Of a stretch of DNA of 64,000 nt, positions 5,442-33,820 are shown in pieces (within the stretch, counting starts at the first letter, position 1; the number at the start of each line of letters is the position of its first letter). The translations under genes were made by a program, and so were the position numbers. The stretch covers positions 1 through 64,000 of the forward strand of contig JADNRY010000339.1 in NCBI GenBank assembly GCA_015501585.1, given 5' to 3'. The DNA comes from Rhodocollybia butyracea. Taxonomy: Eukaryota > Basidiomycota > Agaricomycetes > Agaricales > Omphalotaceae. A model generated the notes under the pieces. That model was given only the letters and a program-made list of their open reading frames with translations, did no database searches and was not told where the DNA came from.

Positions 5442-5512
5442 CTATAAACTATAATGCCGTTTAAAGTCGATAAAAATTATACTTCTTAGCTACAATTCTT
5501 AGCAAGGGGGAG

Positions 5513-9051: not shown

Positions 9052-9105
9052 CTAGAAAGAGAAAGCTTAGTTGAAGCTGATTGCTAGATCATAAATGTGT
9101 TAATG

Positions 9106-9139
9106 TTTTAGTGTCCTTGTTGGACACAAATGGATTATC
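9106..9139 (+). repeat. left terminal inverted repeat of the giant transposon
   Basis: It contains GTGTCCTTGTTGGACACAAA at 9111-9130 and matches the reverse complement of 30359-30392 at 28 of 34 positions. The 16-bp core is itself nearly palindromic (TGTCC...GGACA). Confidence 0.9.
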
Positions 9140-9266
9140 CCGACTACCACCTTGAATGAGATTATCTGGTCATGATTGCTCAAAAACTAAGATTTTCAAG
9201 ACCAAGCTGTGTCATGATATTAAGGAATACTGTGCCAAAAATAAGCCAGCGGGCTGCACAAAAATC

Positions 9267-9520
9267 AACCATGATCATGATCATGATCGATGTATTTTCA
9301 TGACCATGATTGTCAAAGAATTTCATGACTCACATGACCGTGATTGGGATTATTGAGACCGTGATTGGAATTCTTGAGACTATAATTGGGATTATTGAGA
9401 CCGTGATTAGGATTATTGAGACCATGATTGGGATTACTGAGACCGTGATTGGGATTATTGAGACTAAGATGGAGATTATTAAGACTGTGATTAGGGTTGT
9501 CATGACCATGATTGGAATCA
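9267..9520. repeat. left subterminal repeats: GATCATGATC cluster and 21-bp tandem array
   Basis: An ATGATCATGATCATGATCG cluster (about 9271-9289) is followed by about eight 21-bp units of GTGATTGGGATTATTGAGACC type from 9340 to 9507, plus a partial unit. Units differ at 1-5 positions. Similar ATGATCATGATC sequence recurs in the right subterminal zone. Such repeats inside TIRs are common transposase-binding or replication sites; that role is inferred. The 73-codon ORF across it is a by-product of the 21-bp period. Confidence 0.75.
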
Positions 9521-9593
9521 AAGTGATTTGAAATTCACTATCATTACAACATTACTGAAAAATTTATTGCCTAGAGTGTCCTTCTCAACCATC

Positions 9594-11477
9594 ATGAGGA
9601 TCTTTAATCTCTTATGGCTTTTTGTATCTGTTGTACAAGCACCACCCCCGGCAGATCTCTCACTTCAAACTCAAACTATTCGCAACTCATACCATGAGTT
9701 GGGTCTTCGTGTCACCCAGGCATTGCGTATCCAGGCTGGTGATATCTCTCAGATCCAAAGATATCAACAGTCAGTACAGGTCTTTTTAACTACAGTCACT
9801 GCAGTGTGTATTGCCATTGTATTCATAAAAAAACCCCATAACTTACTCTCTCAAAGCATCAACATTTGTTTGACCCATTGGAATACAACACTATCAATAC
9901 CGGTGTTCAAAACATGGCAACTGCTCTGGAAGAAGCCTCTGCAAAGTCAGAAGACATTGCAGAGCATACACCTCTGGCACCCGTTGAAGTAATCCATACT
10001 GGCCAGAGAGGCCGGCCAAGGAAGAACATTGACCGGGAACTCCTTGAAACTAGTCTACGGCTCCGAGGCCCCACTCACATTGCTCCAGTTTTTGACTGTT
10101 CATCCCGTACCATCCGCCGAAGAGCATTGGAACATGGGTTGGTTGAGGCTTGTCCTCCTGTCTATGTTACCTATGAAGATCCAAATACTGGGGAAGTCTT
10201 GCGAATATACCGGTCCTCCACAGCCCCCATGTCCACCCTCTCTGATGATGAGCTTGATGCTGTCATTGGACATATTCTTGAAGTGTTTCCTGCCTTTGGG
10301 CGAAGAATGATTGCAGGCCATTTGCGCCACTTAGGTCATAGTGTTCCTCGGGCTCGTATCCGGCTGTCTTATGAGCGAGTTACTGGATCTCCAGCATTTT
10401 TAACTGCTCGACCCATTGAGCGCCGGCGCTACCATGTTGCAGGACCTAACTCTCTTTGGCACCATGATGGACAACATGGTATGATCTTAAGATTTTTATT
10501 CTCTGTCTTTACTAATTGGGGAGACAAATTTAGCGCTCATCCGGTGGAGAGTAGTCATTCATGCCTTTGTGGATGGTTTCTCGCGCCTTGTGACTGCTAT
10601 TCAAGCAAATGACAATAACCGCGCGGATACTGTTCTTGCTTTGTTCCTTGAAGCAATCCAAGAGCATGATACACCCAGTCGCGTCCGTGGTGACCATGGG
10701 GTAGAGAACCTTGGAGTTGCAAGATATATGGAAGAGCACTATGGGGTGGAAAGAGGCTCATACATCTGGGGCAGGTAGATCCATTACATTTATCTATGAC
10801 TTACTTTGTTGCTAATTCCCTCTTTCTATTCCAGGAGTGTTCACAATGTCCGTATTGAGCGCTTATGGAGGGATGTCACACAAGGATTTGGAATAAAGTG
10901 GTACAACTTTTTCTATGATCTTGAAGCATGTGCTGGCCTTTGTCCTGACTTTGACTCTCATATATGGCTTCTACACTATCTCTTTTTATCCTCCATCAAC
11001 CAGGATGCAATGGAGTGGGCAGAAACTTGGAACCATCACAAACTATCTTTGGATGGTGAACGTGATCGCTCACCTAGGGACATGTATTTCTTTGGAGTTA
11101 TACAGGAGGGACTTCGGGGCCCTGAAGGCGTTGTAGATGCCAGTGGAACACTCCAGCGCTTGGAAGAAGACATTGAAAATATCATGACCTATGGAGTCGA
11201 TTGGAGGGATATGGCTAATCCTGCTCTTTTACACCATCATAACCTATACAACCCAGAGGAGGTTGATCAACTTGGTCACCACAGCAGTCATTGCCCTCCT
11301 CATTTGTCTTTGGTGGAAGTTCCGGCATTTGAATGTCCATTTGAGACAGATGAGCAACAGACCAGGTTTGTTGAAGCTCTGTCTTTGATGCCAGAGTATC
11401 ACTCAAGGGAGATGGAAGATAGGAGGTCACTGTGGATTCAAGGTCTAGATATAATGAGTCAGATTCTTTCTATGTAG
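9594..11477 (+). CDS. DDE integrase/transposase of the giant transposon (IS3EU-like)
   Basis: Exons 9594-9779, 9857-10478, 10534-10774 and 10835-11477 join in frame across introns of 77, 55 and 60 nt. The N-terminal helical region is followed by GQRGRPRKNI and a helix-turn-helix-like segment (CSSRTIRRRALEHGL). The rve-type core has first Asp in LWHHDGQH, second in PSRVRGDHGVEN and the Glu in SVHNVRIERLWRDV. All three catalytic residues are present. The C-terminus is long (GVIQEGLRG, about residues 380-560). This integrase type is found in basidiomycete and animal elements. The start is uncertain: 9594 is the nearest in-frame Met without obvious upstream coding. It should cut and join the TIR ends in the nucleus. 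Confidence 0.8.
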
Positions 11478-12714
11478 TCTTCTTACTCTGTATTTTTCCA
11501 CAAATAACTGTAATCCATTTACAATGCACTGGAATAATGTGTAACAAGCTCTCAATTAGGCCGTATGGGCAGAAGGAGCAGAAGAGATACAGTGCCTATG
11601 TCTTTAAGACTCAGAACATTTATTTCTGCTGTACAGTGTTGCTGTATAAGTATGGTAAAGGAAGTGATTCCATAAAGGGAGCAGCCTGTCCCCATGGCAG
11701 CATAGGCAGTAAGCTTGACTCCCAAGGATCCAAAGCAAGGGTCAACTGCCAAGCTGATGTAGAGCTTACCACCGTACCGTATATGGTCACGGCCGTGTGT
11801 TTCACGGACCGTTCTAGCAACAGAAGTCCGCATGCCTTACCGTAGTTAAGATTTCTAAAGGGCTTTCACGGTATGGTTACTGTTTATTATGGCCGTTAAC
11901 GGTCATGACGGTCCGTAATAATCTGTACTGCCTATAAAGTCAATAAATGCTAATTTAATCACAAACAGTGGTAGTGAAATAATATACAGGAAATTGACAG
12001 GGCAGTGGGAAATTTGAGGTGATAGGAAAGGAATTTAAGGAAAACCCACTTAGATCCCACTAACATGTTAACTGAGTGGGCACTTCAAGGGCACTTACGG
12101 TCCGTATTGGTACATACGGTATGGTCAGATACGGTGGTAACCGTACCATTGACCGTCCCGTGGAAGATTGAGGCAGGAGGAGGTATGGGACAGGTACCGT
12201 GACCATCACGGTGGTAAGCCCTAAGCTGATGTAGGGATGGAAGTATGGGCAAAAATATCAGGCTGCTGGTTATAACTAAATAGAGCAGTCTGATGATTGA
12301 TATTTCACGCCTCTTCATCTAATGAAAAATTGTCAGGGAGGGTATGCTGGCTTGAGATGTGGTAGTTGTTATTCATTGCCGAACCTTTAGGTTTGGCTTC
12401 TTAGATGAAAGTATTTCTCGTACCATTACCATATTGGGCCAGTTAGGCAACCCTAACCTTAGTTTGATTCTGCATCTGACAGCTCATTCTTTTCGTACTG
12501 CCTCATGTTGTTGTTCCGGTCCCGGGATCCCCAGTAAGAACATGCCCCAGCCCGAGCTGGCCCAAACGACCTGGCCAGTTCACACATAATCTTTTAGGAT
12601 TTTTCACAACCTTCAACTGTCCTCAAAGCTTGCTTCTTCGAAAACGGACAAGGTAAAACCTGCTTGAATAGACCACACGAAGTCAAAGGCATTAAGATAA
12701 GCGCCGTAAATTAT
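11478..12714. other. intergenic region with clustered TACGGT/ACCGTA motifs
   Basis: No gene recognised. From about 11740 to 12290 the hexamer TACGGT or its complement ACCGTA and close variants recur many times, often in inverted pairs. A similar cluster sits at 19890-20010 on the far side of the satellite. It could be a decayed non-autonomous element or a protein-binding array. Confidence 0.45.
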
Positions 12715-12770
12715 GTAAGCGACGAGGCGCATTGCTGCTTATATAAGTCGTGAGGCGCACTGCTGCTTAT
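12715..12770 (+). promoter_or_regulatory. tandem 28-bp promoter repeat with TATA box, upstream of the JmjC-like gene
   Basis: Two adjacent 28-bp units (12715-12742 and 12743-12770), each ending GGCGCA(T/C)TGCTGCTTAT, with TTATATAAG spanning their junction at 12739-12747. The array lies 40-90 bp upstream of the ATG at 12809, a normal fungal core-promoter distance. Confidence 0.55.
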
Positions 12771-12808
12771 GTTATAACACAGCCTCCTTTTTCCTCTCTG
12801 CTTTAAAA

Positions 12809-15800
12809 ATGTCTGATTCCAGCACTCAACTTCACTCTGATTATGGGGACCTCACTAGTCTTATTAATGCTCAGAAAAAACTTATCAAACAAACGAAACA
12901 CGGTGATCCTGGTATTCAGGTTGGTTGACAATCTCGCTTGAATCTTACATCAATCAACCTTATCTTGACAGCGTTTTGCCGAATGCCTCACATCTGAATT
13001 AAATTCGCCAAACCGCCTCTGGCTTGCATTAACGGATCCAACGTCAGCTGTTCCTTTGATTGGAACTCCACGAGAATGGGCAGTGGTGACACTTAGGATT
13101 TTGTGGATCCGATTATTTAATCTCCTCTCTTCTCCCACAACAAACATGATCTCTTTCAACAATGATTCCCACAGTACCTTCATTTTATCCTCATTACCCA
13201 CAAAGCTTCAAAACTATGTATGCATTGCTCATTGCCTTGTCCTTTTGGCTGAAATAAAGATTCTCTAGTTTAAACCATTTGCGGTCAAACAAGGCTGGGT
13301 TGATGTTTTAACCACCGCATTGACTGAGTTCAAAAGCCAACAGCCATATCTTGACTCTGAACTCAATTTCCATCCCAATACTGGCGAAGACAATGTACCT
13401 TTCCTCAGGCTTTTATCGCACACCAAAGAGCTATCTAATCTTGCCAATATCGTCAAGATTGTCACCAATATCAATTATGTTGCGATGCACCTGGCATTGA
13501 TTCAAGTGGTGCCATCATCTTTCATTTGTATGATAATAATAATACTCAAGTACCATTTTTTCTAGGGAATACTGGAGTTTCCAGACAAATATGAGAAACT
13601 TGTCGCCATAATTACGGAGAAATTTGCACCGTGGGTCTCTTCCTCTTGACATTGTTTTCAGAGTCTTACTTTCAATATAGTGACTCCTATATAAGGCACG
13701 ATATACTACCAGCTTTTGCTAACCATTACAAAAAGCATGAATGGGATTATCCTTTGTTATCCATATGTGCTACCACTGTGTTGGGTGTCTTTAGGACAGT
13801 CCTGCTGCATAAGACACAAAGCTCATCGGAAGCACTTCTTGAAGTATAGTTATCTAACTTTTTCCTGGACACTTTTCAATCTAAATTATATCACTAGCTT
13901 GCTCATGGTCTTGGCATGACACGCCCTCCTTCTCTTGCCTCAATTGAGACAGCAGTGTGGTCCAATCTCCTTGATGTCTCAAAAGGTAAAATGACTGCTT
14001 ATGAGATGCTGAACCATCTCTTTGGCAGTGATGGCATTGTTGAATCATCACTTTCCTCAATCCCATCCAGAGATGCCAGGTTCTTTTTCCCAGGTATGTT
14101 ACAGGTTCTTTGTTAATATTTCAATACTCAATAATGTACTGATTCAGCGGATTCTCCTCCACTAACTGCTTTCATCACTGAAGCTTCTGGTAAGCAGTCA
14201 TTTGAGCAACTTTCTATTGCTGTCAATCAATGCTCACTAATCGATACTTTCCACAGGAGATATCCAGCTCATTTCGGCCAGCCAGCATGAACCTGACCAA
14301 CATGACCTTGACACACTTGATTTTCACAATGGACTTGTCTCTGCTCTGAACCACGTGAGGGAAACCGCAGAAACTTATAGCACAGAGGATCTGGTATGCA
14401 ATATTATTGATTGCAATGTTTTCCCACCATTGACAGTTTATGTAGCAAGCAGGCTCAGCCGCTGCAGTGAAAACTTCTCAAGTAGATCTTACTGGTGGCT
14501 TTGTTGAAGATGTAGGAGATGTAGGCACAGATGGATCTCTGGTATGCATTCTGTCAGGCTTTATATACTTATCAAACCCTTATTATCTCTACAGAGTCCT
14601 TTAACTCCGGTACCTGGGAGTCCTGTCCTCAAGAGTTCTGTCCCTAAAAGGCCTCAGAGTCCCATTGCTGAGGGCTTGATTCCTGAGTTTCAAGTTGTTG
14701 AAAATTCTCTCAGCACAACTACTCAAAATGCAAACAGGGGTAATGATATACGCTTTGTTACTCGTATGCTCCAAGATAGTGTGACTTGTTCTGCTTCTCT
14801 CACACATCCCTCATCTCCGACTCCTCCAAATGTCTCCACGGCTCCAGCAATCTCTAGGAGCCTAGCAGTCACTGCAACTCCGGTGCTTGCTGTAACTCCC
14901 GCAGTTAACATATCCCCAGCAGTCCCTGCTGTGCCAGCGGTGGTTAACTCGACTCCACCAGTCTCTGCGACTCTGGCTATCCCTGCAAATCCTGCTGTCC
15001 CTGTAGGCACTCCAAAAGTCTCTCTCCCTCCAGGTCTGGAAGTCCCTGAGACTCCAGTAAATCCGGCAGTTATTACAGCTCCTGTAGTCCCAGCAGGGAC
15101 TCCAAAATTCTCTGTTCCTCGAAGTCCCAAAGTCACTGAGAGTCCTGCGACTCTGGCTATCCCTGGAAATTTAGCTGTTCCTGTAACTCCAAAAGTCTCT
15201 CTCCCTCCAGCTCCAGCAGTCACTGAAACTCCAGTTGCAGCAGACACAGGTACTTTATCTATCTCTCAATATTACTGGTTTTTTTCACTGATAGCATATC
15301 AGAAATGGACATGATTGACAATATATTGCCTTTGAGTACTAATTTATCAAAGCGGAAGCGCAGCATATCTCCAGTCGCCTCAATATTGGACCATCCTTCT
15401 GAACCGCCTCGTCGTTCAGCTAGACTTACTGAACAGGTTAGAAAGCCCTTAGCCAGTGCCAGTGCCTCAGCAACAAAGAGGCGTAAAAAGCGAGCTCATA
15501 TCAAGCCAGCATACTCAGCCCTTCAGGAGTCTAATTCTGAAGAGATTAAACCTGCTCCTGATTTTCCTGTTGAACTTATTTATGAACGCCATCTCACTCC
15601 ACCTGTAAGCTTATTTTATTTTATCTGTTGCTGTTGCTAGATTGGTTGAAAACAATTATGATAGCTTCTCTCGACTCCTCCAGTTAAACTGTTCCATCAC
15701 GATTTTTCTTCCTCGTATGATGGGTATTCACATCATGCCTATGTAAGTTTCTTTTTGGAGTAGATGAGATATTCTGATATCTGAACCAAATCTGCTCATA

Positions 15801-17589
15801 AGGAACAAGATGCACTTGACTCGTTCAGAACTGTACAAGCTAAAGTACAGGCTCAGGCTGTAGCTGATGGCCGATGGGATACAGAAAACAACTGCTTCAA
15901 TCTATCCTGGTCCCATCCGGTCGGGTATCCAATCTATGATGTCCAGAATTCTGAGTGGAACTCCAAACAATATCCTGCCAGCCGTAAACAGGCCATATTT
16001 GGAGCAGTCAGCGCAGTTGTTGTTCATGGTGTGCCCGATGGTGAGTACAACTTCAAGGATGAAGGTGATATGGCGCATCTGCTTGGGAATACCAATGACC
16101 TACACACCTTACATGGTATGTCTATAATTCTTTTCAATTCAATGACTTTTAAATTTGGACTTTTCACCTATATTGCTATAGATCTATCCTACTCTCAAGA
16201 AAATGATGCAAATGCAGTTCACCGACAAGGCACACTTCAAGATGTTATCTGGGCTGCAGAAAACAAGAGACCAACAAACTGTCTAGATATTCTCATTGCT
16301 CTTTCCAAAGCACCTCCTCCTGATGGACTGGCAACAAACTTTGAGGCAGAAATGATCATTGGGGACACTGTTTATACTAAAGGGAGAACATTTGGCTTGG
16401 CTGGAACCACCTATACACAACATTACTGCCATGTCGATTGCCAAGGCCAGGTCACGTTTGTATACGATAAGGCCGGAGTCAAGCTCTGGACCATTGCTGT
16501 TCCAATTAAGGAAACTGATATGGGGTCGACATATGCTTTTTCGGGATCATACAGCCGTTATGACTTCAGTAATGATCAGAAATGGAGAATATATAATATT
16601 CTTCTTCGACCTGGAGATCTTCTGTTTGTTCTTTTTCCCCCTGTAGTTCACTCTATCTTTACTGATTAAAATCCTATTTAGTATCATGAATCCTGGTGTG
16701 CTCCACTATGTATTGACTCTTGAGGACGCTATCTGTCTGGGCGGTCATGCCTACTCCTCCCAAACGTTACAGGCCACAGCATTTGCGATTTTTCATTCTT
16801 TTGTTGCCTCAGACATCCTAACAAACACAACTCACTTTCATGCAGTAGAAGGTCTTCAAAGTATAACCTCATACTGGAAGACCAATATTGTTGATAATGC
16901 CACCCACTTTAAGAACCTGGTTAAGCGGAGTGGTTCAAAGGTCAAGGATGATGGTACGTGTTGGTAACTACATTATTTTTGGGATCTAACTGTGTCTGTG
17001 CTATCCAGGCTCTCATATCATTCCTCATCTGCCTAATCTCCTTATTCTGCGAGACTTGGTCGGATGTTTTTCTCTGTTGAACCTGATGATGCTCGGATCT
17101 ATTCTTGATGTACGGCGATACTTTGAAGAAGACAGAGAGATGGATCTTTGGGACCATGATAGTCTCATGTCTGATGCCACCAAAACTCGCTATAATGACA
17201 CTAAACAGGCAGCGAAAGACCTTTGGGGGTGGCTCATAGATAACATCAGACTGGAGCTTGATGGGTCATCCGACACCCTGGAAACAAGTGAACGTCTACG
17301 GATTATATCCCTCAGATACCTTGTCCAACAGTGCAAGGCCCTGATTAGCCATAAACTACGGGCTGAGCAAGCAGAGATCTATGGCGAGGATGCATGTGTT
17401 ACAGCCAAAGCGATCCGGGAAGCCATTGAAAAGGATTTTGAAGGTGACCAGGATTTTATAGCGCTTTGGCCAGAGTCAAGGCCAAGGCAAACTCTAGAGG
17501 GTTGGGTGGAAACATTTCAGGCAGAGGATTTGGACTACAACTGGCCATCTGCACCTGAGGGAGGAAGATACCGAGTTGTATTAATATAG
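12809..17589 (+). CDS. large multi-exon cargo protein with a JmjC-like dioxygenase domain
   Basis: ATG at 12809; exon 1 (37 codons) splices at 12920/12971 in frame into an unknown helical region. The middle (about 14540-15250) is a Pro/Val/Thr-rich low-complexity tract with repeated LAVPVTPKVSLPPA-like units. A basic nuclear-localisation stretch follows (RRSARL, TKRRKKRAHIK, about 15410-15500). At 16030-16960 lies a cupin: TYTQHYCHVDCQGQ (HxD metal site), GVKLWTIAVP (the G-K-W region that binds 2-oxoglutarate) and, after an intron, RPGDLL.MNPGVLHYVLTLE (distal His). This order is that of JmjC hydroxylase/demethylases. The last exon (17056-17589) is unknown. Exon limits other than the first are approximate. 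A nuclear role on histones or other proteins is inferred. Confidence 0.62.
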
Positions 17590-17639
17590 GTTTATTTATC
17601 TTGTATATATAAGTGTAGCAGATCTATTGATTGGAACAA

Positions 17640-19640
17640 TGATCTCTGCATCCTCCTCCACCTTATCTCAAGGAAAATTACTTCAAGGAAAACACGTTAG
17701 AATTGATGGAGTTTCAGGCAAAATTGTATAACTCACTCAGAGGAAGGTCTGGGTGACGATGAGCCAGTGATAACATTTTGGACCAGCATGCGGACATTGG
17801 GCGTGCTTGGAACAACAGGAGGGGTGGCCGTATACTATCTTACCTCATAGGAAACGCATTAGAGTTGCTGAATTTACGGGCAAAATTGTTTAACTCACCC
17901 AAAGGCTGCAGGTGACGAGAAGACAGTGACAAAATTTTGGAGAAGCATCCAGACAGCGAATGTGTACGGAACGAGACTCTCAATTGATCAAATACCACCT
18001 TACAGCAAGGAAAACGGGTTAGAATTGAGAAAGTTATGAACAAAATTACAAAACTCACCCCAAGAAGGCAGGTGACGAGGAGAGAACAACAAGATTTCAG
18101 AGGAGGTTCCGGACAGTGGGGGTGCATAGAATAAGACTCTCGGTGATCACATACCGCCTTATGGCAAGGAAAATGGGTTAGAATTGAGAAAGATATGAAC
18201 AAAATTACAAAACTAACCCCAAGAAGGCAGGTGACGAGGAGATAAGAAAAAAAAATTCGGAGGAGGTTCCGGACAGTGGGGTGCATAGGATAGGACTCTC
18301 GGCGATCACATACTGCCTTATGGCAAGGAAAACGGGTTAGAATTGACAAAGATATGAACAAAATAATAAAACTCACCCGAAGATGGCTGGTGACGAGGAG
18401 CCAAGAAAAAAAAATTGGGAGGAGGTTCCGGACAGTGGGGGTGCACAGAACGAGACTCTTGAAGATCACATACTATTCTATGGCCAGGAAAACGGGTTAG
18501 AATTGAGAAAGTTATGAACAAAATTACAAAACTCACCCCAATAAGGCAGGGTACGAGGAGACAAGAACAAAATTTCGGAAGAGGTTTCGGACAGTGGGGG
18601 TGCACAGAACGAGTGTTTCCCTAGTCATATATCACCCTACAGCGAGGAAAACGGGTTAGAATTGACAAAGTTATGAATAAAATGACAAAACTCACCCCAA
18701 GAAAGCAGGTGACGAGGAGACAGCAACAGAATTTTGGAGGAGCATTGGCACAGTGAACGTGCACTGAACGAGTGCCTCTATAGTTATATACCACTTTACG
18801 GCAAGAAAAATGGGTTAGAATTGACGAAGTTATCAGCAAAAGTACAAAACTCACCCCAAGAAAGCAGGTGACGAGGAGACAGCAACGGAATTTCGGAGGA
18901 GGATCCGGACAGCAGAGGTGCATGGAATAGCACTCTCGGTGATCATATACCGCCTTATGGCAAGGAAAACGGGTCAGAATTGGCAAAGTTATTAGCAAAA
19001 TGACAAAACTCACCCCAAGAAAGCAGGTGACGAGGAGACAGCAACAGAATTTCGGAGGAGCATTGGCACAGTGAACGTGCACAGAACGAGTGACTCTATA
19101 GTGATATACCACTTTTACGGCAAGAAAAACGGGTTAGAATTGACAAAGATATGAACAAAATTACCAAACTCACCCCAAGAAAGCAGGTGACGAGGAGGCA
19201 ACAACATAATTTTGGAGGAGGATCCGGACAGCAGAGGTGCATGGAATAGCACTCTCGGTGATCATATACCGCCTTATGGCAAGGAAAACGGGTCAGAATT
19301 GGCAAAGTTATTAGCAAAATTACAAAACTCACTCCAAGGCACCAGGTTGGTGGAGCGGCAAAGGCAAAATTTCCAAGAGGCATTGGCGTGATATGGTACG
19401 CATAGAGCAAGTAATCCGACGTCAATATACCACTTTACCGCACGGAAAACACGTCAGAATTGGCAAAGTTATTAGCAAAATTACAAAACTCACTCCAAGG
19501 CGCCAGGTTGGTGGAGCGGCAAAGGCAAAATTTCCAAGAGGCATTGGCGTGATATGGTACGCATGGAGCAAGTAATTCGACGTCAATATACCACTTTACC
19601 GCACGGAAAACACGTCAGATTTGAAGGAGTTATCCCCAAT
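17640..19640. repeat. satellite array, about 13 copies of a 159-160-bp unit
   Basis: The motif AACGGGTTAGAATTG recurs at 18016, 18175, 18334, 18494, 18653, 18812, 18971, 19131 and 19290 (steps 159-160), with more diverged copies on both sides. From about 18735 copies alternate between two variants (GCATTGGCACAGTG type and GATCCGGACAGCAG type), a dimeric higher-order period of about 319 bp. The last two copies are nearly identical. Period near nucleosome-repeat length. The minus-strand ORFs here come from the periodicity, not from genes. Confidence 0.92.
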
Positions 19641-22600
19641 ACTGTATAAATCACCCTGAACTTTGAGTTTGTCTGAGACATAGGCAACAGAAAGACAAGA
19701 GTAAAGAGGGAAAGAGGGAAGCAGAACCGAATATAGCCAATGCTATACGCGGCGTACAAAGTACAGAAGGAAGTCTAACCAACTCTGCTGGAAGGGTCAT
19801 GGTGGTCAAGCATCAAGCTTTATATGCCGCTCAATCAACAAGCGCCATAAGCGTGACTTGTAAGTCACGTGAACCTCATTTTCGATGCACTCTGCACCGG
19901 AGCCGTATGTACGGTTTATACGGACGGTTTATACGGTTACGACACTGTAACCATTGGGACCCAAGTCAGGACATGTACGGTATGGGAGGCGGTACGGGAT
20001 ATAGCCGTATACGAATTATGGACGTGGTTCCATTTCATTATCCTCAATGTACACTACTTTATTTGTCCTCAATCAGTGATAGAACTGTTCACACCTTTGA
20101 TCATTTCACAAATCTACGATCGATTCACAATTGTTGAATTTCCGTCGCCTTTATCCCGTCCTTTCAGTCTGCTCAGTTACTAGTACTCCAGGTTAAAACT
20201 AACACTCTCTATACCCTTGCTCTCTGCACAAGTTATACCAGCTTGTGTACTCCCTCGGTTCATATCCTGGACCCACTACGAGGCACTCGGGTGGCTGCAT
20301 CATGGGCGCTCAATGAGCGCCTAAATCTCGAATTCTTCTCCTCCTTCTCCCTCCACCGTTATCGCCTCTGAATCCTTCTACTTGCCTGCTATTCACCGCA
20401 CCGCACCTCTAGCTTGCTAGCTCAACTTGAAGATTAGGTACAGGTTGTAACGTCGCCGAGCAAGGAATCCCGAAGCTTGATTCTGGGGGATGCTCATTGT
20501 CCTCGCACTTCCGAATCTCACGTCAAATACATCGCCTTCCAACAACTTGACTGTCATCCACCTCAAAACCTCGGCATTGCTCACTCCACAGCACATTCTA
20601 TTTCCATTCCTCGTCTTATCAGCTCCAGTCTCTCCCTCTGTTCCTTTGCTAATGACGCACACGTCTCGCGGCGTGCCATTCACACACCTTTCTCTCTTAC
20701 GGATATCCATCTGATCTCTTTTTCTCGATCATTCAGATTTATTGTCGTTGGTTGGAGTTAGTTTGGAGTTGTAGATAGTGCTTCTCCAGCACATTCTCTA
20801 GCGGAAGCTAATCTCTGTGTTATAAGTATAGTTCATTGGTTTTGCAATGTTTTGACTCGGCGGCGCACTGGATTTTTTGGCGACGCTCTCTTTCTGTGCT
20901 TCTTCTCTTGGCTAACTATTTGCTGTGGCTACAAAGTGACGAATGCTTGAAAACTCAGAAACCTCTCCCTACTTCCATCATCCGGACATGGTTCAACTGA
21001 GCTTTTTGAATTTGCGTGTACCTGAAGTTAGACTAGATAGTGCTTCTCCAGCACATTCTCTTGTGTAAGATGACTTCTGTGTGACAAGTATAGTGCTTTT
21101 CCAGCACATACCAATCACTTTTCCCCGTGTTATTGTCCCGCCCACCTTGCCCTTCAATTTTATGCTGTCTTTGGATTCATTAGTCAGGTAATTGACAACT
21201 AGGGGGCAGGATAGGATAGGAATGAGTTGGAATTGTCAATGTCCCGCCTCTCCGAATACTCAGCTCACTTCCTTGGCGTTTTACTCAATCTTTGACACGC
21301 TCCCTTCTTACGGATTACTCAAAGTCGCTGCCTCATTAGTGGATACGCCAGCGTTGATCCGCTCAGAGACTGGTGGTACCTTGTGGTCACAGCCCATGCT
21401 CGCTGGCACTTTGAATGTTTCTCTTGATGTTCACTAGTGCTTTTGCCATCTCTTAAACCTCTCTCGCCCTGCACCGGGCAAATTGGTCCTGCTCCATATT
21501 ATCCCCGAATCGAAACACTTCTGCTATGGACGTCCGTCCATTCATCGACTCTCTCTTTGCTCCTCCCATCTATCCGCCACGGTCATCATCCCATTCAAAT
21601 CCTCAGCGCTGCTCACTCGCTACATGCTTCACTCCTAATTCCCATCTTCCCAGCTAAGCCATCAAAGAATAATGGGGAAAGTGCTCGAGACAGTCATGTA
21701 ACCCTGCGCCTATTGTACCTCAAAACTGCGGCGTCACTGTCTCGTTCTGACTTCACGACAGAAGGGGATGTAGAGCCATGCTAACACTTGTCAGGTCATC
21801 TAACTGTAGCGTCACAGTCTCGCCTCACTTTGATTTATCTCGAAACTGCATCTGTTCCAAAACTCAACAAACACTTGTTTCTGGTTCTCATACTGTCATG
21901 CATGGTTTTTAGGAGGAACAAATGCATTGGACCCGTATCTTTGGTTAGATTTTTGAATTCGGGTTCCATTTTTTTATGCGCAGTCAAGCATTTGTCAGTT
22001 TTCTCATTCAAATTACTCGGATGTTCACTAGTATACCTTGAATGAGAAAGGAGTTATCAGCGGGTTGAGTGATTGAAATTGCAGAAGATATCAGTGATCA
22101 AATCATCCGTAATTGAAGTAGCATCGTAGCCAGATGTATCAAATGGGCTTGAATGGAGTATTCCCTCGTGTTTCGTACAATTTTACATAGTCAAGGCGGT
22201 CTTTGTGATATTTGGATAGATGTAATTCTAACACTTGACAATTAAAACTGAGATTTTTGAAGTACATTAAAGACTTACGTCGGATATGCTCGGCCATCCC
22301 TCCAGATGTAATGGATGGGCGAAACTCAATGATGAAATTGTATAGTTCACGCGTCACTGAACAACGCTTGAAAAATTGTGGTATTGTACCTGATTAAACA
22401 ACCATTAGCGGGCAAAGCAAACAAATTGTACCACAGGCTTACGCAGAATCTCAAAATGTTGCCACTTCTCCCAGAAACTGGATTTGTAGTGGAGAAGCAA
22501 CAGCCGAGGCTGGCTTTGTCTTCAGTCTCCTCTGCAGCAACGCCTTCAGTTTCTTCCTTCGATGCTCTTGTACTTGGGTGCGCACGCGATGTCTCGGTTG

Positions 22601-22660
22601 TGTCCCGCCCACGTAGATATAAATAGGTAGTACTGGAACCCCTTTATCAACCGCACCTAG
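19641..22660. other. non-coding block of the giant transposon
   Basis: No gene recognised with confidence. Notable: a TACGGT cluster at 19890-20010; three copies of TAGTGCTTCTCCAGCACA-like sequence (about 20778, 21037 and 21091); GGGCGCTCAATGAGCGCC, a short palindrome at about 20304. A minus-strand ORF at 22139-22357 contains a plausible GTAAGT donor after MAEHIRR and could be a small gene relic; its product is unknown. Confidence 0.4.
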
Positions 22661-22721
22661 CATATATAGGCGCTCAGCTTATTCAGCGTTGAAGGAACTC
22701 GACGCTGAATAAGCTGAGCGC
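22618..22721 (+). promoter_or_regulatory. TATA boxes and perfect 20-bp inverted repeat upstream of the oxygenase gene
   Basis: TATAAATA at 22618-22625 and CATATATAGG at 22661-22670 precede a perfect inverted repeat: GCGCTCAGCTTATTCAGCGT (22670-22689) and its exact complement (22702-22721) around a 12-nt loop. It lies about 90 bp before the ATG at 22808, so it is a candidate operator or a 5'UTR hairpin. Confidence 0.6.
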
Positions 22722-22807
22722 TTAATCTCAATAAATAGCAATAGGATAAGATCTTTGCTTACTCGGAGGTGTAGGTTAATTAGACAGAGGATAGTATCCT
22801 TGTAGCA

Positions 22808-25800
22808 ATGAATGACTTGGATATGGATGCTGGGACCGCTGTCAATCTTCCCTGGGCTGAGGATCAATGGCCATCACTTGGGACGCTGATTCCTGAGAAT
22901 GTCTGTACTCATTAGGCCTTGCTTTGACACAAAATGATGAACAATGGACTGTAATTGTTGATATCTGTACATAGCAAAATTGATCAGATGGATGTGATAT
23001 GTACTTATGGGTGTGAGAACCAACTTCACACCAGTAATAAATAGCCTGGTTGCAAGTTGACTTGCCTTACCCACTCCTCTCCGCCACAACTATCAATGTA
23101 CATCCTGAAGGATGCGCCTATTGTAGAACCACTCCCAGCTGATTTAGAGGAGACAGTGCACAACTGTGTCAAGAGATGGGATGATCTACAAGATCTCCGA
23201 ATGACTTCAAGGCTTGAAAAACAGTGGCGATCTGAATGCATGATCCTTCTGGAAGGGGCGGCCAAGGTCTGCATACGCTATTGTGTAATGGCTTATCATT
23301 GTCATTGTTTTCCCAAGGACAAAGTGGTACAGTGGCTTGACCAGTGCCTACAGATGGGAGGGGAATTGGACCCTCAGGTAGCATTGGCCCATTTTCTCAA
23401 CATTATTCGTCTTCCAGTTTCAAAATGGGATGAGTACCTACAAGCTGCACAGGTTCAGCTTGTGCAAGAGGTTTGCTATTGACAGATTACAGACTGTACT
23501 ACTGAGGCTCAGTAATCCTAGGGAACTCGGTATCAGTGCACTCCACAAAACAGTGAACCTGTTTCGCCACACTCATCCGAACTGCTTCAAGAACTAGATC
23601 TTGAACTAGATTTCAAAGAGGGCAGAAAACCTAAAATATTGAAGGATCTCTCCAATGTGTTAGCTTCTGTCCTAATGAAAAGATGGACGGATACCTTGAC
23701 AAAAGTCTTCTTGGAAGAAGTATGTATTTGCTCATAGTCTCCGCCTGTTACCTGTCACTTTATACTATTGAACTCATTATATAAAGGTACCAAACTGCAT
23801 TGAACAAGATATAGCCAAGGGACTGTGGCTGGAAACCTTAGAAGAAATGAAGGGGATACCAGAGTCAAGATACCAGAGTAGCAAGTGGCAGAATACTTTC
23901 AAGGTCTGTAACATATTATGAACTGCCAATGCTCTATTGCCTAAATAAAATATTAGGGGTCTGAGCTTGCCCAAGCAATAAACAAGATCACTTCTCCAAA
24001 TTATCTAGTAAAGCATGCTTGTCATCGGAAGAAAAATGTGCCACGATACAGGATAGTATGGGTGGGGTATTATGCCCTTGGTGAAGTATTGGGTCTTTTA
24101 CAGGAACGCTGGACACCTAAAGAAACAGTAAAGCAGTGGGAGGCAACAAGCAAGAAAGATAACTTTCAACAAAAAGTGAGAAAATGATGTTCTAAGTGGC
24201 AATTCTAAATTGACTTTTAGAAAATCCCCGGTGTTAATTATACGCTGCTGAAAAATGATCACAATCCTTCCAAGCTGGTACAAACTATATTCTCATTTGA
24301 AAATCTAGTGCCTTTGGAAGCCTTCCCTACCCAAGTATACCTACTGCTCTCAGCTGAGAACTTTACGCAGGCTTGGAACCGGACAATTGCTCCTGGCTTG
24401 GATGAATACCACTTTGATGTGAGAATATTCTGTATCTTTCTTTGGCAACACTTAAATATACCGAGTGAAGCTTGAAGGTATTAGCCCAGAGACCCAATTT
24501 GATCAAATCCGAAGGTGGCTCAGAAGCACGCAAGGCCGTCAGGACCTTGCTCGAATCAAATTGCGCTTAACTGAGCCATTCCAAACTATCTTGGATTGTA
24601 CTGTGGAGTACTTTGAGTTTGTGCAGAAAATTCAAATCAAAGTGTGGGACTTTCGTCTGCACAAGGTTGCCAACCTTATTTATGGACAGCTCAAATGGGT
24701 TAAATAACTATATACAGGATGAGTTTGAGTCCATGTTCCAAGATGGAAAAACATGGACTCCTGGCCTATGCAAACACTGTTTTAATGAACCACCAATTAA
24801 TCAATGTGTCCAGGATAAACTCACCACATTTCTGACATGGGAAGAAGTAAAATGCAAGTACCCAGAGTTTGACTTGGAGGGTGCAGGTATCAGCTGTGCT
24901 CCGAGGGGCCACCGGGTAATGCCAGTTCCGGTAAGGTTTCTCTGTTCTTTGTTCTAAAAGGGAAACATTGAATACATCAGCAGCCTCCTCAAATTCACAA
25001 CAAAGATGGAAGTATCAAGGAACACAAACCTATTACCAATATATACCACCCAATAGATGATCTGCATCTCATGATTATTGAAGCCAACCAAGAAATTATT
25101 AATCGATGCGGTCGGCATATTGTTCGACTCATTGATAGCCAGACAAACCAGCTTGTAAGTAATATGAATACTCTATGTTCCACCATTCTCAATATGAACA
25201 AATTCTACATGGCAGCATGATTTTATCTACTTTAATGCCTTCCCTGTGGACATATTGGACAGTATGGTTACTAACAATGAAAAAGACAGTGGGGTGAAAG
25301 CATTAAACAGGGAGAGGTCAGAAAAAATGCTTTATTGGAGCAGAGGGGATATGGTAAGTATTGGCAGTAGGATACCAAAAGGAGGAGCTAAAGGTACCTC
25401 CTATGATACTTATCGTGGAATGGTGGCCACAAGCAAGGAGACTATCTGCCTCCTTTTTGATCATGCAAGGGATTCCTTGGCAATTCTTGAATCCGCCCGT
25501 TCTGTGGACTCCACACTGGTCTCGAAACTCAAAGAGGTCTCTAAAGAATGCAACCGCCTGGGAATCAGTGGTGCTAATATTTATCGTTGCCAAAATTATC
25601 AAGCTCCAGTTCACAATGAGATTGATGCTTCGCAGGGACTCTGTGCTCAACTTTGGCATAAAGGCAAAGATGAATGGTTGGAGTGGGGATTCTTTAATCT
25701 GCAGTTGGGTTATTTGATCAAAACACAATCAAACACTTTATGGTCAGTTTGCAAAGTTACTGTGTGTCTTGTTGCCATACTCTGATTGCTACCCTTTTAA

Positions 25801-26173
25801 GGTCCTTTGACTCCTCCCATATGCATGGAACAAATCTCCCCAGTCAAGAGTCCCTCATCACCAGTAATCAGTGGCATTGGAATGAATCTTCAGATAATGA
25901 AGAAGATATGGAAATAGTAAATGAGCTGGAGGAAGGTGAAGTTGCTGACAGTACTGAAGGTATCAAATTCTCTCTGGTGAGCCTTGTACTGGGCTAATGT
26001 AAGTTTAAAAAACAGTATACCAATTGCAAGGTGGTAAAGACCCAAGAGATATTACACGTGTCACTGGAAGCATTGGTATTCATGTGACAAGCACTTCTCG
26101 CAATGTGAAGGCTGCCAATAGAAATGCTGGAGTAAGAACTAGAGGAGAGGCGCGCCGGAAATACTATTCCTGA
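22808..26173 (+). CDS. multi-exon cargo protein with C-terminal TET/JBP-like 2OG-Fe(II) oxygenase domain
   Basis: It starts MNDLDMDAGTAVNLPWAEDQ and ends RGEARRKYYS before TGA at 26171. Many short introns. The first two thirds are helical and unrecognised. The C-terminal domain (about 25246-25860) carries YRCQNYQAPVHNEIDAS (HxE/D-type metal site, where relatives have H-T-D-K-D-A-S), EWGFFNLQLGYLIKTQSNTL and WSFDSSHMHGTNLP (distal metal His). This is the layout of the basidiomycete TET/JBP-type oxygenase family that often travels with transposons. An acidic tail (SSDNEEDMEIVNELEEGEV) and basic end follow. Oxidation of modified bases in DNA is the family's known chemistry; activity here is inferred. 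It converges on the next gene with 16 bp between stops. Confidence 0.58.
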
Positions 26174-26189
26174 TGCTACACTGTATGTA

Positions 26190-29100
26190 TTATATAAGAA
26201 ATGATCTGGCAGCATGTATCTTGTTCCTAAGTGTAGGAATGGCTTGAAACATATCTACCATAGTGTAGCGTATAGACATAGGCCATGTCTGGGAATTTCT
26301 GTTTGAAAGCTGCTGAGCAGATAGTCGATAGGGATACCAAAGCCTGTAAGAGGCTTGTAGGTCAGGGGTAGCTAATCCACTGTCAACCAGCTCCTGTAAT
26401 TCCTCGAATATGGTATGGAGTTGATGGAGGCGAGGTCTTTTATTAGAAAACGTCCCAGGGTTGATATCCATCCAGGAATAGATATTGGCAAGGGTGAGGG
26501 TCATTCCATTATGCATGGTAACCACTTTATCCATCTGACTGGTAGATATGTCAAATCCAAACCCCATGCAATGGCTTCTACTCCAGTTGCAAAGAGAAGA
26601 AACTTGCGCACCCGGAAAGCCATGTCTTCAGCTACAGCCACGCGCTCATCTTCAGAGATCAAACAATCAAACTCTGGATGCTGAATGTGGCCCTTGCCTC
26701 TGACCCAGCGAAAAAAAAGTCTCTGCCATTTTGCAGCCAAGTCATGTTCTTCATCAGAAGCAGCAGTAGGGAGGACCCACTTGATGCAGTTGGCGGCTTC
26801 CAAAGCGGCGCCATCTTCAGCCAAGCAGCTGGTCAAGAGTGGGAAAAGTGATTTTGAATGGGATCCAAAGATTTTAAGGAGTGAATAAGAGGAGCCCAGA
26901 CGTATATCAAATCCATGTTGAAAGGCAGTGACAAGGGGATGGTCTTCAAAGGTCGTGACTCCAATAGGAAGCCCCAAAGCAACCCGAGTAATGATCTGGT
27001 AGCGAATCTGCGCACGGTCCTCAGTGGGCAAGCTATTATAATCTTGATAAAATGTGGCATGCTAGAAAACAACCTTTGAGCATGGAAGAACTGAATCACA
27101 GAGGGTGAAGAGAAATGCCTAACCTCCTGGACTAAGTAGACTTCAATGAGCTGTTTTACAGTCTCATTGTCAGGCAATACCCAACCAGTGGCCTCAGTTG
27201 GCCAGATTTCAGCTGCGGATGATGCTGAGGAATGAAACTGAGACAGAAAAGTGACATCATCCACATCACATGATTGACCTGTGCAGGCAACAAAGAAGGA
27301 TGGAGTGATAAAGTCGGGGAGGTATCTCAGATGGATAAGAATCAGGCCAGTCAGTGTACCATATGCTTTGACTGTGGCTGTCATCTTGGCTGATGCCATT
27401 TTGTCAAGTGCCAATGACTTCAAGCCACTTGCAATGTCAGTCCAAATGATACTATCATGTTTCATGATATGCATGGCTGCGGATAAAAATGCTCGGGTAA
27501 TTCCAACCCTTCCCCCACACCACTGGAAGGTTATAGTTAGGGCAAGACAGCCAGCAAGAAAATACTGCGTACAGTTTAACCTTGATCTTGCAGCCAAAAT
27601 ACTGAAGCCCTACAGGGAGGTCTACTTGAACAGCTCGGTTTGAAGCAAGAGGGTACCCGTGAAAACTAATGAGCTCTTTAATAAAAGAAGCAGCGGCAAC
27701 ATCTGCAGAGGGAAGATCTGAGACCACAGAGATAGTATGGCCAGGTGTTAATGGGAGTAGAAGGCTCCTTAACTCGGCAGTAGTGGTAGGATTGTTGGTA
27801 GGCCTGCAGTCACTCATGATGTTGTCCAAGAGATCCAAACGGCGTCGAGCCTGAGGGCGCGGATTAGGCTAAGAGATATGTAAAAAAAAAAACAAATCAA
27901 AAAATCCAAAAGAGATGTCATACCAAAGGGCTGACTGAGCGAACGGGTCTAGTATTCCTAGGAGGAATAGGAGGTGCATTACCAGGAGCAGTGGAAGGTC
28001 CAGCCTCGGAAGATGAATGTTGCTGGGCGGAAGCTTGAGCTTGGTCCTGTACACATAAAATTTGAGAGAAAGACTTGGTATAAATAGAAAAACACACACC
28101 ATAAGAGACAGGTCAATTGCCCTTTGGATATTTTCTGCCTCTTCACTGTCTCCATCATCAATGTCTAGAGCGCCAGGCTGTGTAAAGCTGACTGAAGTGG
28201 AAGGAAGCAAAAAACCACTGGAAAGCGGAAGGTCACTAGCGCCTAAGACAGGAATGGCACTTTGCCTTGAGGACAATGATTCAACATCCATAGTACTAGG
28301 AGCTGTGGTACTTCCATTGACTCGTGGAATAGGATAATGCAATGGATGAGAAGGTACCACCGGACACTCTCGGAAACATGTAAAATTATCTGTATCTTTT
28401 TCTGTATCAGAGTCTTCATCTTCTTGAGGGAGCTCAGCCCATTTAGGGTCATGAAGAAAAGGCGTTACAAGCTTGAAGCCAGCACAAAAGTGCCGCTGCC
28501 AGTTGATTGGTCCAGAAGCGGGAGCTTATTAGATTTTGTGAGATAAATGGGAAAAGGAAAGAGAAAGAATGACACACTGATAAAAATTGTCCTCTCCTCA
28601 AATCCATGTTCAGATTTAGTCTTATCGAGGTAAGGAAGGAGAGTTGGAGCCTCCCACCAGTCAGTGGCAAAGGCTTGGCGCAAGAGAGGATAAGCACGTG
28701 GGTGTCTCTTTTCTGAACCCTTGATCTTGCTAGGCTTTATGTTGGACTGAGCTACCACCCATAATAGAGTAGTTTGTGAAGTAGGTAAACGTGGAGGGAG
28801 AGTGATTTCCATGGCAGCAAGCTGCGATGTAATGGAATGGTCAACAGTATCACGTGTCTCCATACCAGTTGAGCCAGCCGGCACAAGGACTGTCCATACC
28901 AGTCCCTGAGCCTCAAGAGCCTCCACAAGCAGGTGGACATTGGGAATGCGGATTCGTATGCCACTTGCAAGTGGGCGCCATTCAAGTGTGGGATCAGGTA
29001 CAAGGTCTGTCTAGTATGAGTTGAACGCTGATAAGAATTATTGAGATACAATGAATATTCAATGAACATACATCACATGGTTCAGGGATAAAAACAATAC

Positions 29101-29788
29101 GGAGATTGAGCGGGACTGCACCACGCCTGTTACTGCCGGCAGTACTGGGGTAGGCAGACCTTGCAACGTTGTGGTTGCTTGCTTTGCCCTTTTTTGGAAG
29201 TGCACTCATGGTATGAGCAACACGGCGAGAGTTGGTACTGGGGAGAGCAGCCCGGGTGGCATTTATGGCGCCAGGGCCTTGCCAGACCACAGCGGAAGCT
29301 CCTCGCTGGGTTGAAGCAGAGTTCAGGAAAAGAGGAGATGGACTGGGGGACCTGTACAAGATATGAGACATATGTAGTGTACTTGAAGTTCAAAAAAGTA
29401 ATTGACTCAATGTTGTAATGAGCTTGGTATATGGCTCCACACCGGGTTCCTCCTGCAATGGTCCTGTAGCAAGCAGTGTGCCGCGTGACAGCACTCCAGT
29501 CACACTACCACACAAAGTTAGAGGTTTAGAAATTAATAGAGATATTTCATCATTTACCAGAGCTAAAAATCCACTACAACCAGTGGCAGGGCAAGAGCCC
29601 TTGGCAGGCAAAGTCCTGGGAGCTGGATCTTCAGTGTGGTGCTCCTTGGCATGGTCACAGACACAGAGATCAGTCTTCACAGAGAAAATTAGTACACAGG
29701 AGATGGTCAAAGGATTGCCACTGACATTAGGCCCTTGAACCAAGTACTCTGCACAGGGAAGTGAGTTGGAACATTGTGTGCAAGGCAT
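26190..29788 (-). CDS. zinc-binding, UIM and HECT-like ubiquitin-system protein
   Basis: ATG at 29788. The N-terminus is Cys/His-rich (MPCTQCSNSLPCAEY, LCVCDHAKEHHTED, GSCPATGCSGF), then a Ser/Ala-rich linker (SALPKKGKASNHNVA). A central globular part follows, then a ubiquitin-interacting motif (SEEAENIQRAIDLSL, about 28120). The C-terminal ~600 residues contain GVGGRVGITRAFLSAAMHIM and RKFLLFATGVEAI, resembling the D-x-G-G-x-x-x-E-F and F-L-x-F-x-T-G segments of HECT ligases. I do not find a clear catalytic Cys of LPTAxTC type, so it may be inactive or divergent. Several short introns; exon limits approximate. HECT-like genes also sit beside this integrase type in animal elements, as I recall. 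Confidence 0.55.
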
Positions 29789-30358
29789 TTTTGATAAATG
29801 GTGAAAGAGCAAAAGAGCGGGATTTGGAATTGAAAAAAAGAGTATCAAGGAAAAAGGCGCTTGTGGATCAAGTGATCAGGCCAAATATATGACATCACTG
29901 ATAAGTGAGCGGTTCCTAGTACCGGATATTGAGCGCTAAGTAACAGTTTGGTTCTTATTGACAGAACTTGAAAATGTAGGAATCCTGGAAATCCAAAAAT
30001 CCAGAGTGAAGCGCAGAAATCTTAAGAATGGTGCGCAAAAGAATTCAGATCATGCGTGAAAATTGGAGACCTGGGAAAATCATGAAATTGTTGGCATGAC
30101 AGAATGATATGCCTACCGTGATCATGATCATGATTGAGAAATCAAATTATTGGGCTACCCAATGGAATTTTCGGGACTGATCACAGAATTATCATGCATC
30201 AGTACTGGATCATGGTCACATAATCTGCCTTTTTGTGGATACCTGAGAATGGATCGTGATCATGGTGCAAAACTCAAAATTTGACAGTGATCATGCTACA
30301 AAAATGATAATGCATGCCCAATCATGGTCCAAGAATGTCTATCAAGGACCACCAGCTT
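29789..30358. repeat. right subterminal zone with GATCATGATC motifs
   Basis: Upstream of the HECT-like gene and inside the right TIR. CGTGATCATGATCATGATTG lies at about 30117-30136, with several further ATCATGATC/GATCATGGT copies to 30340. It probably combines the gene promoter with transposase-binding sites. No ORF of note. Confidence 0.6.
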
Positions 30359-30392
30359 GATAATTTATTTTTGTCCAACAAGGACACCCATA
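30359..30392 (-). repeat. right terminal inverted repeat of the giant transposon
   Basis: Read on the minus strand it starts TATGGGTGTCCTTGTTGGAC. It is followed on the plus strand by the duplicated target TTAATG. Confidence 0.9.
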
Positions 30393-30414
30393 TTAATGAT
30401 GCATCGATACATAC

Positions 30415-31521
30415 AATAAAGCCTTCTCCATATTTGCCTGCAAGCCCAGTTTATCATTACTATGTTGAACGTCAAAGTCGGCTCCAAATCTAAAATGACA
30501 CAACATGAGCACCAGTGATAGTTTGTAAGAAAGCACTTGTTCATACGCCAAATCACCCATAAAATCGAACCTTGCATTCTGAATTAGTATTTCTCTCCGA
30601 CCTGTCTGCTGCATACAAGATATTCACTTACAGGAACAGGTTGATACTTCGAGCAACATCCAATACTCCGTAACCTCCACCGGCAGCACACTGTTTTTCT
30701 AGCTCACCCATGAAAACCTCAACGTTACGAATCCAAATCTCCCTATAATCACTCAAAGGTTCATCGGCAAATGCTCTGTTCCAAGTTTTTCGTAGTTGAG
30801 CGTGGTGTGATAGATCCCGGGTATTTATTAGATTGAAGCTGCCGGGGTTTTTCTTGGGAGTGATCCTACCTTCCCAGACTGGTTCAATGAGAACGCTGCA
30901 TTGTGAGTTGCATTTTATACGCATCTCCGTTAATCCAACTTACGGGGACCCTTAGGCATGCCTTGCGCACCGATGATGAAGGGTAAAAGATCTTTGTCCC
31001 CAACTGATATTTCATTCGGCCTGCAACACGACATCTGTCAGTTCCGTGGGACAGCTTGACTCGGAGTATTCTTAACTCACCGACTCGAACAATTGAACCG
31101 TACTGTTCATGTAACTTCTTATAATATTGCGGCAGCTTCCCATCCAATGACATCCAAACCGTCCACAATTTTGAAACTTTAGCAATAGTAGGTCCAGGGT
31201 ATCGAGCAAGTGGGTGAAAAGGCGACAGCCGATACAGAGTAATTGAAAGTAGAACAAGAGCATAGAAACTGGGATATGCTATGAGGACTGCATAAACGGG
31301 CGAAGCGACGTGATGGCTTAGGATGAAAGTCGGCAAGGCTGGGATCCCCAAAACCGCAAGATAGATGGGTGCAAAAGACGCCGGTTCGTGAGTCTTGAAC
31401 CAAAGATGAGTGGCCTGTGTTTGGTTTTTAGTTGTTGTATATATATGGTATTCAGGAATTTGAAGCTCACAATTGCAGCCGTCGCAAGCAAAAGAAATGA
31501 GTCTGCTGGTGCTCCGAGCAT
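30415..31521 (-). CDS. cytochrome P450 monooxygenase, 5' half
   Basis: ATG at 31521 (MLGAPADSFLLLATAAI) is chosen because, after a 56-nt intron (31415-31470), it gives a hydrophobic N-terminal anchor followed by RYPGPTIAKVSKLWTVWMS and EQYGSIVRVG, the usual P450 start. Later exons give GAQGMPKGP joined to LWEGRI (acceptor inside ACCAG), TRDLSHHAQLRKTWNRAF and FDFMGDLAYE. The last exon ends at 30415 and a GTATGT donor follows at 30414. Joining to 9051 keeps the frame. Two oddities: the junction after RVG reads one base short of the expected P-N-E frame, and the exon after GDLAYE is unclear. The gene may be decaying. Confidence 0.85.
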
Positions 31522-33800: not shown

Positions 33801-33820
33801 ATAAGGGCCTGAAAACCATC

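Follow-up and report, generated by a model that had tools for sequence, protein, structure and literature searches.

Positions 9106 to 30392 of a 64-kb stretch of DNA from Rhodocollybia butyracea (contig C649 of a draft assembly of 95.6 Mb in 1381 contigs; the whole stretch is called the window below) hold a DNA transposon of 21,287 bp, read here on the plus strand. We consider it fairly likely that this is an IS3EU-like cut-and-paste element, inserted recently and probably autonomous, which carries an epigenetic helper kit. Its transposon structure is given by its ends, a target duplication, an unoccupied site, an intact catalytic triad, deletion derivatives with duplications of their own and four open genes. 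Beyond the transposase, these genes comprise cargo gene 1, which resembles JmjC-type enzymes, cargo gene 2, an oxygenase candidate with an HxE motif (the HxE gene), and cargo gene 3 on the opposite strand.

Ends, target duplication and unoccupied site

The element is delimited by terminal inverted repeats (TIRs) of 34 bp at 9106..9139 (plus strand) and 30359..30392 (minus strand), which are identical to each other at 28 positions. The left end, starting TTTTAGTGTCCTTGTTGGACA, has the sequence TTTTAGTGTCC; the right end closes with CCATA and reads inward, from TATGG, as TATGGGTGTCC. Directly outside, the target-site duplication TTAATG is found at 9100..9105 and again at 30393..30398. An earlier note on this DNA had described such repeats with 28 matching positions and this duplication, and both were recovered.

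The unoccupied site is present in the same genome. On contig C646 the joined flanks align without interruption and TTAATG is present once, which bears out the clean empty site within a P450 intron that the earlier note had reconstructed. The left flank is identical to this contig at 1447 of 1447 bases, and the right flank shows 97.7% identity over an alignment of 1637 columns with 8 mismatches and 3 gaps. Because the exact string of the joined-flank query is absent from C646, its right 121 bases must contain at least one difference. This contig is probably the other haplotype of the insertion locus; the alternative is a recent duplicate. In the joined flanks the insertion point falls, as judged by eye, in an intron of some 70 bp with GT..AG borders, part of a minus-strand P450 gene. 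The 3′ part of the interrupted gene occupies 8600..9105 and its 5′ part 30399..31732, both being judged P450 by eye from the translation. The element landed recently in this intron.

Left subterminal repeats extend over 9336..9518 (plus strand), with 7.5 copies of a 21-bp unit at 9336-9492. Furthermore, the palindrome TGATCATG occurs ten times in the element (four times in the first kb, five times in the last kb and once internally) and has no copy in the 42.7 kb of the window outside it. The presence of nine of the ten palindromes in the outer 1 kb of either side suggests that they are putative transposase sites.

Transposase

The transposase gene (9594..11477, plus strand) has four exons and encodes 571 amino acids. 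Its product matches the PF24764 integrase core with an E value of 2e-65 and contains the triad D274-D331-E366, in which 34 residues separate D331 from E366, so the intact DDE integrase of the earlier note is found again. The ratio of nonsynonymous to synonymous substitution rates (dN/dS) is 0.077-0.087 against three copies of a second lineage described below; the computation skips gapped codons and is blind to frameshifts. All gene models were made with a simple splice-aware predictor, and those of cargo genes 2 and 3 agree with database proteins except for a few exon choices. As judged from its sequence, the protein is a DDE integrase-type transposase under strong constraint and a candidate member of the IS3EU lineage.

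Such a protein would bind the TIRs as well as the subterminal repeats rich in TGATCATG, excise the element and insert it at 6-bp staggered cuts. The element has the coding capacity for the autonomy that had been proposed for it.

Other copies and a second lineage

Left-end DNA has 14 matches in the genome and right-end DNA 11, the window included in each count. Both ends lie on one contig in the normal arrangement in four cases: the window (21,287 bp), C1371 (5286 bp), C1064 (3123 bp) and C1283 (1570 bp). Perfect 6-bp duplications flank all four, and all are different (TTAATG in the window; CAACCC, CAGTAG and GCTATG in the others). Duplications were scored for these four copies, the remaining ends being single, at a contig edge or rearranged. 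The three shorter copies derive from this sequence by loss of internal parts; the one on C1371 has a clean internal deletion and is 99.0-99.6% identical to the window. At four deletion junctions no identity was found at the breakpoints as tested. Such short copies would arise by internal deletion and would then be moved in trans.

The first five bases are alike in all located left ends and in all located right ends, with the exception of CATGG at the right end on C535. The earlier note had named integrase copies with other ends as a ground for doubt; the closest transposase copies have the same ends. A degenerate TIR-core pattern of 29 bases, searched with at most three mismatches, gave 28 matches in the genome compared with 0 for the reversed control. 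Five of the 28 (two on C566 and one each on C604, C622 and C768), each with three mismatches, represent a related family. At C566:14699-21498, facing pattern matches stand 6.8 kb apart, with a transposase 74% similar at 15907-17209 and no match to the HxE gene; further ends of this related family lie on C604, C622 and C768.

A second, diverged lineage is represented by two contigs. C893 carries the left end at 16259, the transposase at 13829-14476, the JmjC gene at 8004-8870, the satellite at 4786-6921 and the HxE gene at 414-989, after which the contig ends. C1283 carries the satellite at 214719-216383, the HxE gene at 210043-210567, the opposite-strand gene 3 at 206436-207158 and the right end at 203610. 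Together they repeat the whole gene plan of the window. C628 and C467 have the left end, the transposase and the JmjC gene only. On C467 this is because the contig ends, and on C628 no right end was found by the TIR-core pattern search.

Some arrangements are more complex. C668:38001-48000 and C278:5001-14052 share a copy with same-facing ends and with TACCGT beside both in inverted orientation. This copy sits inside the right end of another copy, which looks like an insertion into its own family, or into itself, with inversion. C1064 and C268/C1094 share their outer flanks and are apparently two haplotypes of one locus. On C268/C1094 a long copy, which matches the window at 99% over the parts it retains and lacks the right-terminal 1.2 kb, is seemingly nested in the 3.1-kb copy. 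KDZ transposase matches at C268:6559-7269 are separated from the left ends by about 6 kb and lie outside the element.

Within the window copy, a tandem array with a unit of 159-161 bp occupies 17892..19623; it consists of a 159-bp satellite array at 17892-19338 and a related 161-bp array at 19264-19623. The 12 matches listed for it in the genome, a lower bound since only the best candidates were scored, all lie on contigs of the element family (C649, C893, C1283, C668 or C278). The adjoining non-coding stretch (19700..22700) contains short dispersed repeats, has no full-length second copy among its matches (40 of 47 candidates scored) and yields only short single-exon frames from the gene predictor. 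It was probably acquired in part by this copy, later insertions included. Since it is mostly without counterpart and probably contains later insertions, the basic element may be shorter than the window copy, by about 1.5-2 kb as estimated from distances on C893 and C1283. At 19890-20013, matches of 43-124 bp are scattered over many contigs with 75-96% identity, perhaps marking a short dispersed repeat within the element.

Comparison with known elements

The superfamily IS3EU is established, usually makes duplications of 6 bp and has been represented in Repbase since 2013 (PMC10045372, here for its passages on this superfamily). Repeat surveys of mushrooms (Phlebopus, Ganoderma) have also recorded IS3EU sequences. 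The duplications of 6 bp in all four both-ended copies, the right end and the TIRs of more than 30 bp (34 bp, 28 identical), as in the rust families, place the element close to this superfamily, and the transposase type is compatible with it. The earlier note had suspected an undescribed giant element class. We do not retain this claim, because multigene IS3EU elements have been published (PMC12730594 and PMC10853768, in the parts describing these families).

The closest parallel is offered by the IS3EU families which carry a TET gene, described from seven rust species, with termini TAYGG..CCRTA, and in one family from the truffle Tuber indicum (Kojima 2025, PMC12730594). The R. butyracea element shares with them the 6-bp duplications, TIRs longer than 30 bp and a right terminus of the form TAYGG/CCRTA. 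In all these families, as described there, the TET gene stands between the transposase and an opposite-strand alpha-kinase, and the candidate TET gene of the window likewise lies between the transposase and an opposite-strand gene. In contrast to the R. butyracea element, however, the rust and truffle elements carry an alpha-kinase, and the main text of that paper makes no mention of JmjC. The truffle family has a PE-type gene, whereas the rust families have the PU type. The paper's list of elements for Agaricomycotina names Kyakuja, Zisupton, EnSpm, Plavaka and Helitron2; IS3EU is absent from that list.

Styx of Zymoseptoria also has an IS3EU-type transposase, 6-bp duplications, four coding sequences and a 36-bp TIR; its copies vary in length, and solo TIRs occur (PMC10853768, in its account of this element). 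It differs in its ascomycete host and in a length panel which is limited to copies below 13 kb, and two of the four sequences are described there as confined to Zymoseptoria.

Two other kinds of cargo-carrying elements were considered. KDZ (Kyakuja) elements with an AG-type TET are likewise mushroom DNA transposons with a dioxygenase gene, but they have another transposase, and the Kyakuja families described have 7-bp duplications and no TIRs (PMC12730594). The modelled proteins contain no KDZ domain, and C649 has no KDZ match. Starships are also large fungal cargo transposons; they use a tyrosine recombinase and belong to Pezizomycotina (PMC12134995, in the part concerned), whereas a DDE transposase with TIRs is found here and no tyrosine recombinase Pfam domain occurs in the four modelled proteins. 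The element is thus neither, as the earlier note had held.

A search of the open-access literature by title and abstract found no transposon with a JmjC gene. Within the literature searched, the combination of a JmjC-type gene with an HxE...H oxygenase candidate in an IS3EU-like element of Agaricomycetes is new.

Cargo genes

The three cargo genes are multi-exon models without internal stops, which agrees with the three large spliced genes that had been noticed before, together with the satellite. Cargo gene 1 (12809..17589, plus strand) has 16 modelled exons and encodes a protein of 1312 amino acids whose C-terminal part includes a JmjC-like domain. The JmjC-like region (15803..16953, plus strand) contains HVD at residues 965-967 and a distal H1037. 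The Pfam family JmjC_2 matches both relatives of this gene in the same genome (best E value 9.6e-6). A profile of three sequences, cargo gene 1 and these two relatives, finds PHF8 in the PDB with an E value of 4e-4, gapless across the iron-ligand span. The best 7 of its 17 PDB matches are PHF8 or KDM7-type JmjC demethylases; the weaker ones include KDM2A and PHF2, with two or three other entries interspersed. The spacing from HxD to H is 72 residues, which we take to be that of PHF8 as well. Between lineages, values of dN/dS are 0.35-0.36 for the first nine exons (three second-lineage copies), 0.12-0.15 for 15803-16953 and 0.17-0.24 for 17009-17589 (two copies compared). In sequence, the predicted protein resembles histone-demethylating enzymes of the JmjC type. 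The element had been called chromatin-manipulating: its cargo does include a chromatin-type (JmjC-like) gene, and the manipulation itself is what we infer from it.

JmjC-type relatives outside the element family were found on C575, C563, C80, C1139 and C475, none of which has a transposase relative among the matches. On C563 and C80, a C-terminal region past the JmjC part is common to these relatives and cargo gene 1, as seen by eye.

Cargo gene 2 (23096..26173, plus strand; 11 modelled exons, 844 amino acids) is a candidate HxE-type 2-oxoglutarate (2OG) oxygenase, PE-type TET/JBP-like. It contains HNE (HxE at residue 697) and, 51 residues on, a distal HGT histidine at 748. Near-identical R. 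butyracea proteins are in the database for gene 2 (P0001) and gene 3 (P0002), with 97 and 98% identity over 94% of the models. Searches of the protein database with both genes, covering the 8000 best word-sharing candidates, found only near-identical Rhodocollybia proteins and one Lentinula protein corresponding to part of gene 2. This Lentinula edodes homologue, P0003, has kept HIE and the distal H: its H647, E649 and H698 are invariant with respect to P0001 within a highly conserved block, two sequences being compared. HxE is the hallmark of PE-type TET/JBP proteins (PMC12730594, where the type is described), and this replacement of HxD, along with the distal H, is present as HNE in P0001 and HIE in P0003. 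The protein may therefore resemble DNA-demethylating enzymes, with a TET assignment resting on motif and context.

It is a serious possibility, though, that cargo gene 2 encodes another 2OG oxygenase or belongs to an unrelated family showing HxE...H by chance, so that the element would hold only one epigenetic enzyme. This would fit the absence of any credible match in Pfam, NCBIfam or PDB, TET/JBP included; CMD1, NgTET and CcTET were not found by the gene 2 sequence profile in the PDB. On the other hand, the three residues are invariant between P0001 and P0003, and the position of the gene matches the layout of TET-carrying IS3EU elements (PMC12730594). PE-type proteins were themselves recognised there only via HHpred (E value 1.4 for CMD1) and structure comparison.

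Cargo gene 3 (26501..29371, minus strand, opposite to the transposase) has 7 modelled exons and encodes 840 amino acids, with no recognised domain in Pfam and no credible PDB match. Compared with the C1283 copy its dN/dS is 0.18, and with the copies on C668 and C278 about 0.5. Purifying selection is indicated by the value of 0.18, as by 0.12-0.15 in the JmjC-like region and about 0.08 in the transposase. An identity as alpha-kinase was rejected on zero Pfam matches at E values up to 10, and the alpha-kinase matches of the genome are unlinked. A ubiquitin-interacting-motif or HECT-like look is likewise without Pfam support. Our guess is an accessory or regulatory factor.

Linkage of transposase and HxE-gene relatives

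Outside the element family, the genome contains 35 clusters of transposase relatives and 21 clusters of HxE-gene relatives. These counts draw on 52 of 52 transposase matches, 34 of 37 HxE-gene matches (three own-family ones being left out) and 13 of 14 alpha-kinase matches; own-family contigs are excluded, including a weak match on C268. Within 12 kb of a transposase relative lie 11 of the 21 HxE-gene relatives, compared with 0.18 expected by chance. The figure overstates the independent cases, which number about nine, because of likely haplotype pairs (C716 with C111, C852 with C494). Among HxE relatives with E values below 1e-13, 10 of 14 are near a transposase relative, and the gene tracks transposase relatives of 36-55% identity. 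None of the 21 has a KDZ match within 12 kb (all 144 KDZ matches considered), and one of 13 alpha-kinase clusters is near a transposase relative. This wider linkage does not involve the JmjC gene and gene 3, which occur only in the element family and its second lineage. We infer an old transposase-oxygenase partnership to which the element family added two genes.

A tentative extension of this picture can be proposed: an old IS3EU-like lineage of mushrooms with a fixed HxE-type (TET/JBP-like) DNA oxygenase would have added a JmjC-type demethylase, so that one element would remove silencing marks from its own DNA and histones alike. In the main reading itself, the JmjC-type protein would strip repressive histone methylation and the HxE-type protein would oxidise methylated bases on the element DNA; by both activities the element would escape silencing. 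The CpG observed/expected ratio is 0.50 in the element versus 0.64 and 0.73 in the flanks, a weak hint of methylation-linked decay.

Alternatively, the transposon may be genuine and IS3EU-like while its cargo consists of neutral or host-derived passengers that contribute nothing to an escape from silencing. The JmjC-type relatives on contigs without a transposase relative agree with this, as does the restriction of the JmjC gene and gene 3 to the element family and its second lineage. Passengers are unlikely, however, given that dN/dS of genes 1 and 3 between lineages is well below 1 (gene 2 standing outside that comparison) and that the HxE gene follows transposase relatives as distant as 36-55% identity.

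Evidence against and remaining alternatives

Several observations weigh against an IS3EU-like element with an epigenetic helper kit, in addition to the lack of profile matches for cargo gene 2. First, TA..TA termini are described as invariant for complete IS3EU families (PMC10045372); the right end here has TA (TATGG/CCATA) and the left end TT in four of four copies, and the element is therefore called IS3EU-like. Second, the window protein of cargo gene 1 matches JmjC_2 at an E value of 0.0021 and JmjC at 0.0052, below the curated cut-offs. In addition, cargo gene 1 of C893 and of C467 has one stop codon each within 17009-17589 as modelled. These stops are either decay of the copies or an intron absent from the final model; with a lower intron penalty, an extra intron is predicted at 17288-17374. 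Third, the sole copy of gene 2 available for dN/dS, on C1094, is identical at the 698 compared codons and so gives no estimate of constraint. This copy is probably frame-shifted, because it was matched in two overlapping frames. Fourth, gene order around the wider relatives is variable: on C694, C716 and C111 the transposase relative has the HxE relative upstream of it, and on C683 and C430 the latter is on the other strand. Lastly, only the window has all four genes on one contig among the matches. The earlier note had looked to a second locus with the four genes between these TIRs; the same gene order does recur at other loci, each of them split by a contig end.

In a composite, two short elements would flank unrelated nested insertions, having moved once as a unit or being merely adjacent. 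The short dispersed repeats of 19700-22700 and the copy-in-copy nesting on C1064 and C268/C1094 would fit, and part of the element length was probably acquired, because this stretch has little counterpart in other copies. Yet the two ends differ in sequence, the diverged second lineage preserves the gene order and there is one exact empty site, which makes a composite very improbable. An assembly artefact joining separate contigs, conceivable in a draft of 1381 contigs, is scarcely credible in view of the exact duplications at both borders and the 99% identical long partial copies on C1371 and C1094, and both ideas were rejected on the second lineage, the empty site and these partial copies.

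Neighbouring sequences

Two open frames of the window outside the element were assessed by eye. The frame at 869-2860 resembles, in translation, a Copia-type retrotransposon integrase, and that at 33761-35461 (566 amino acids) has the look of an F-box protein.

Significance

If the assignments of cargo genes 1 and 2 hold, one mobile element encodes enzymes directed against two layers of silencing. The escape of large fungal transposons from chromatin silencing would then be testable, because one assembly offers an occupied and an unoccupied site together with natural deletion copies which lack parts of the gene set. The element also widens the range of multigene IS3EU-type elements to the Agaricales, where Lentinula edodes has a homologue of the HxE gene.

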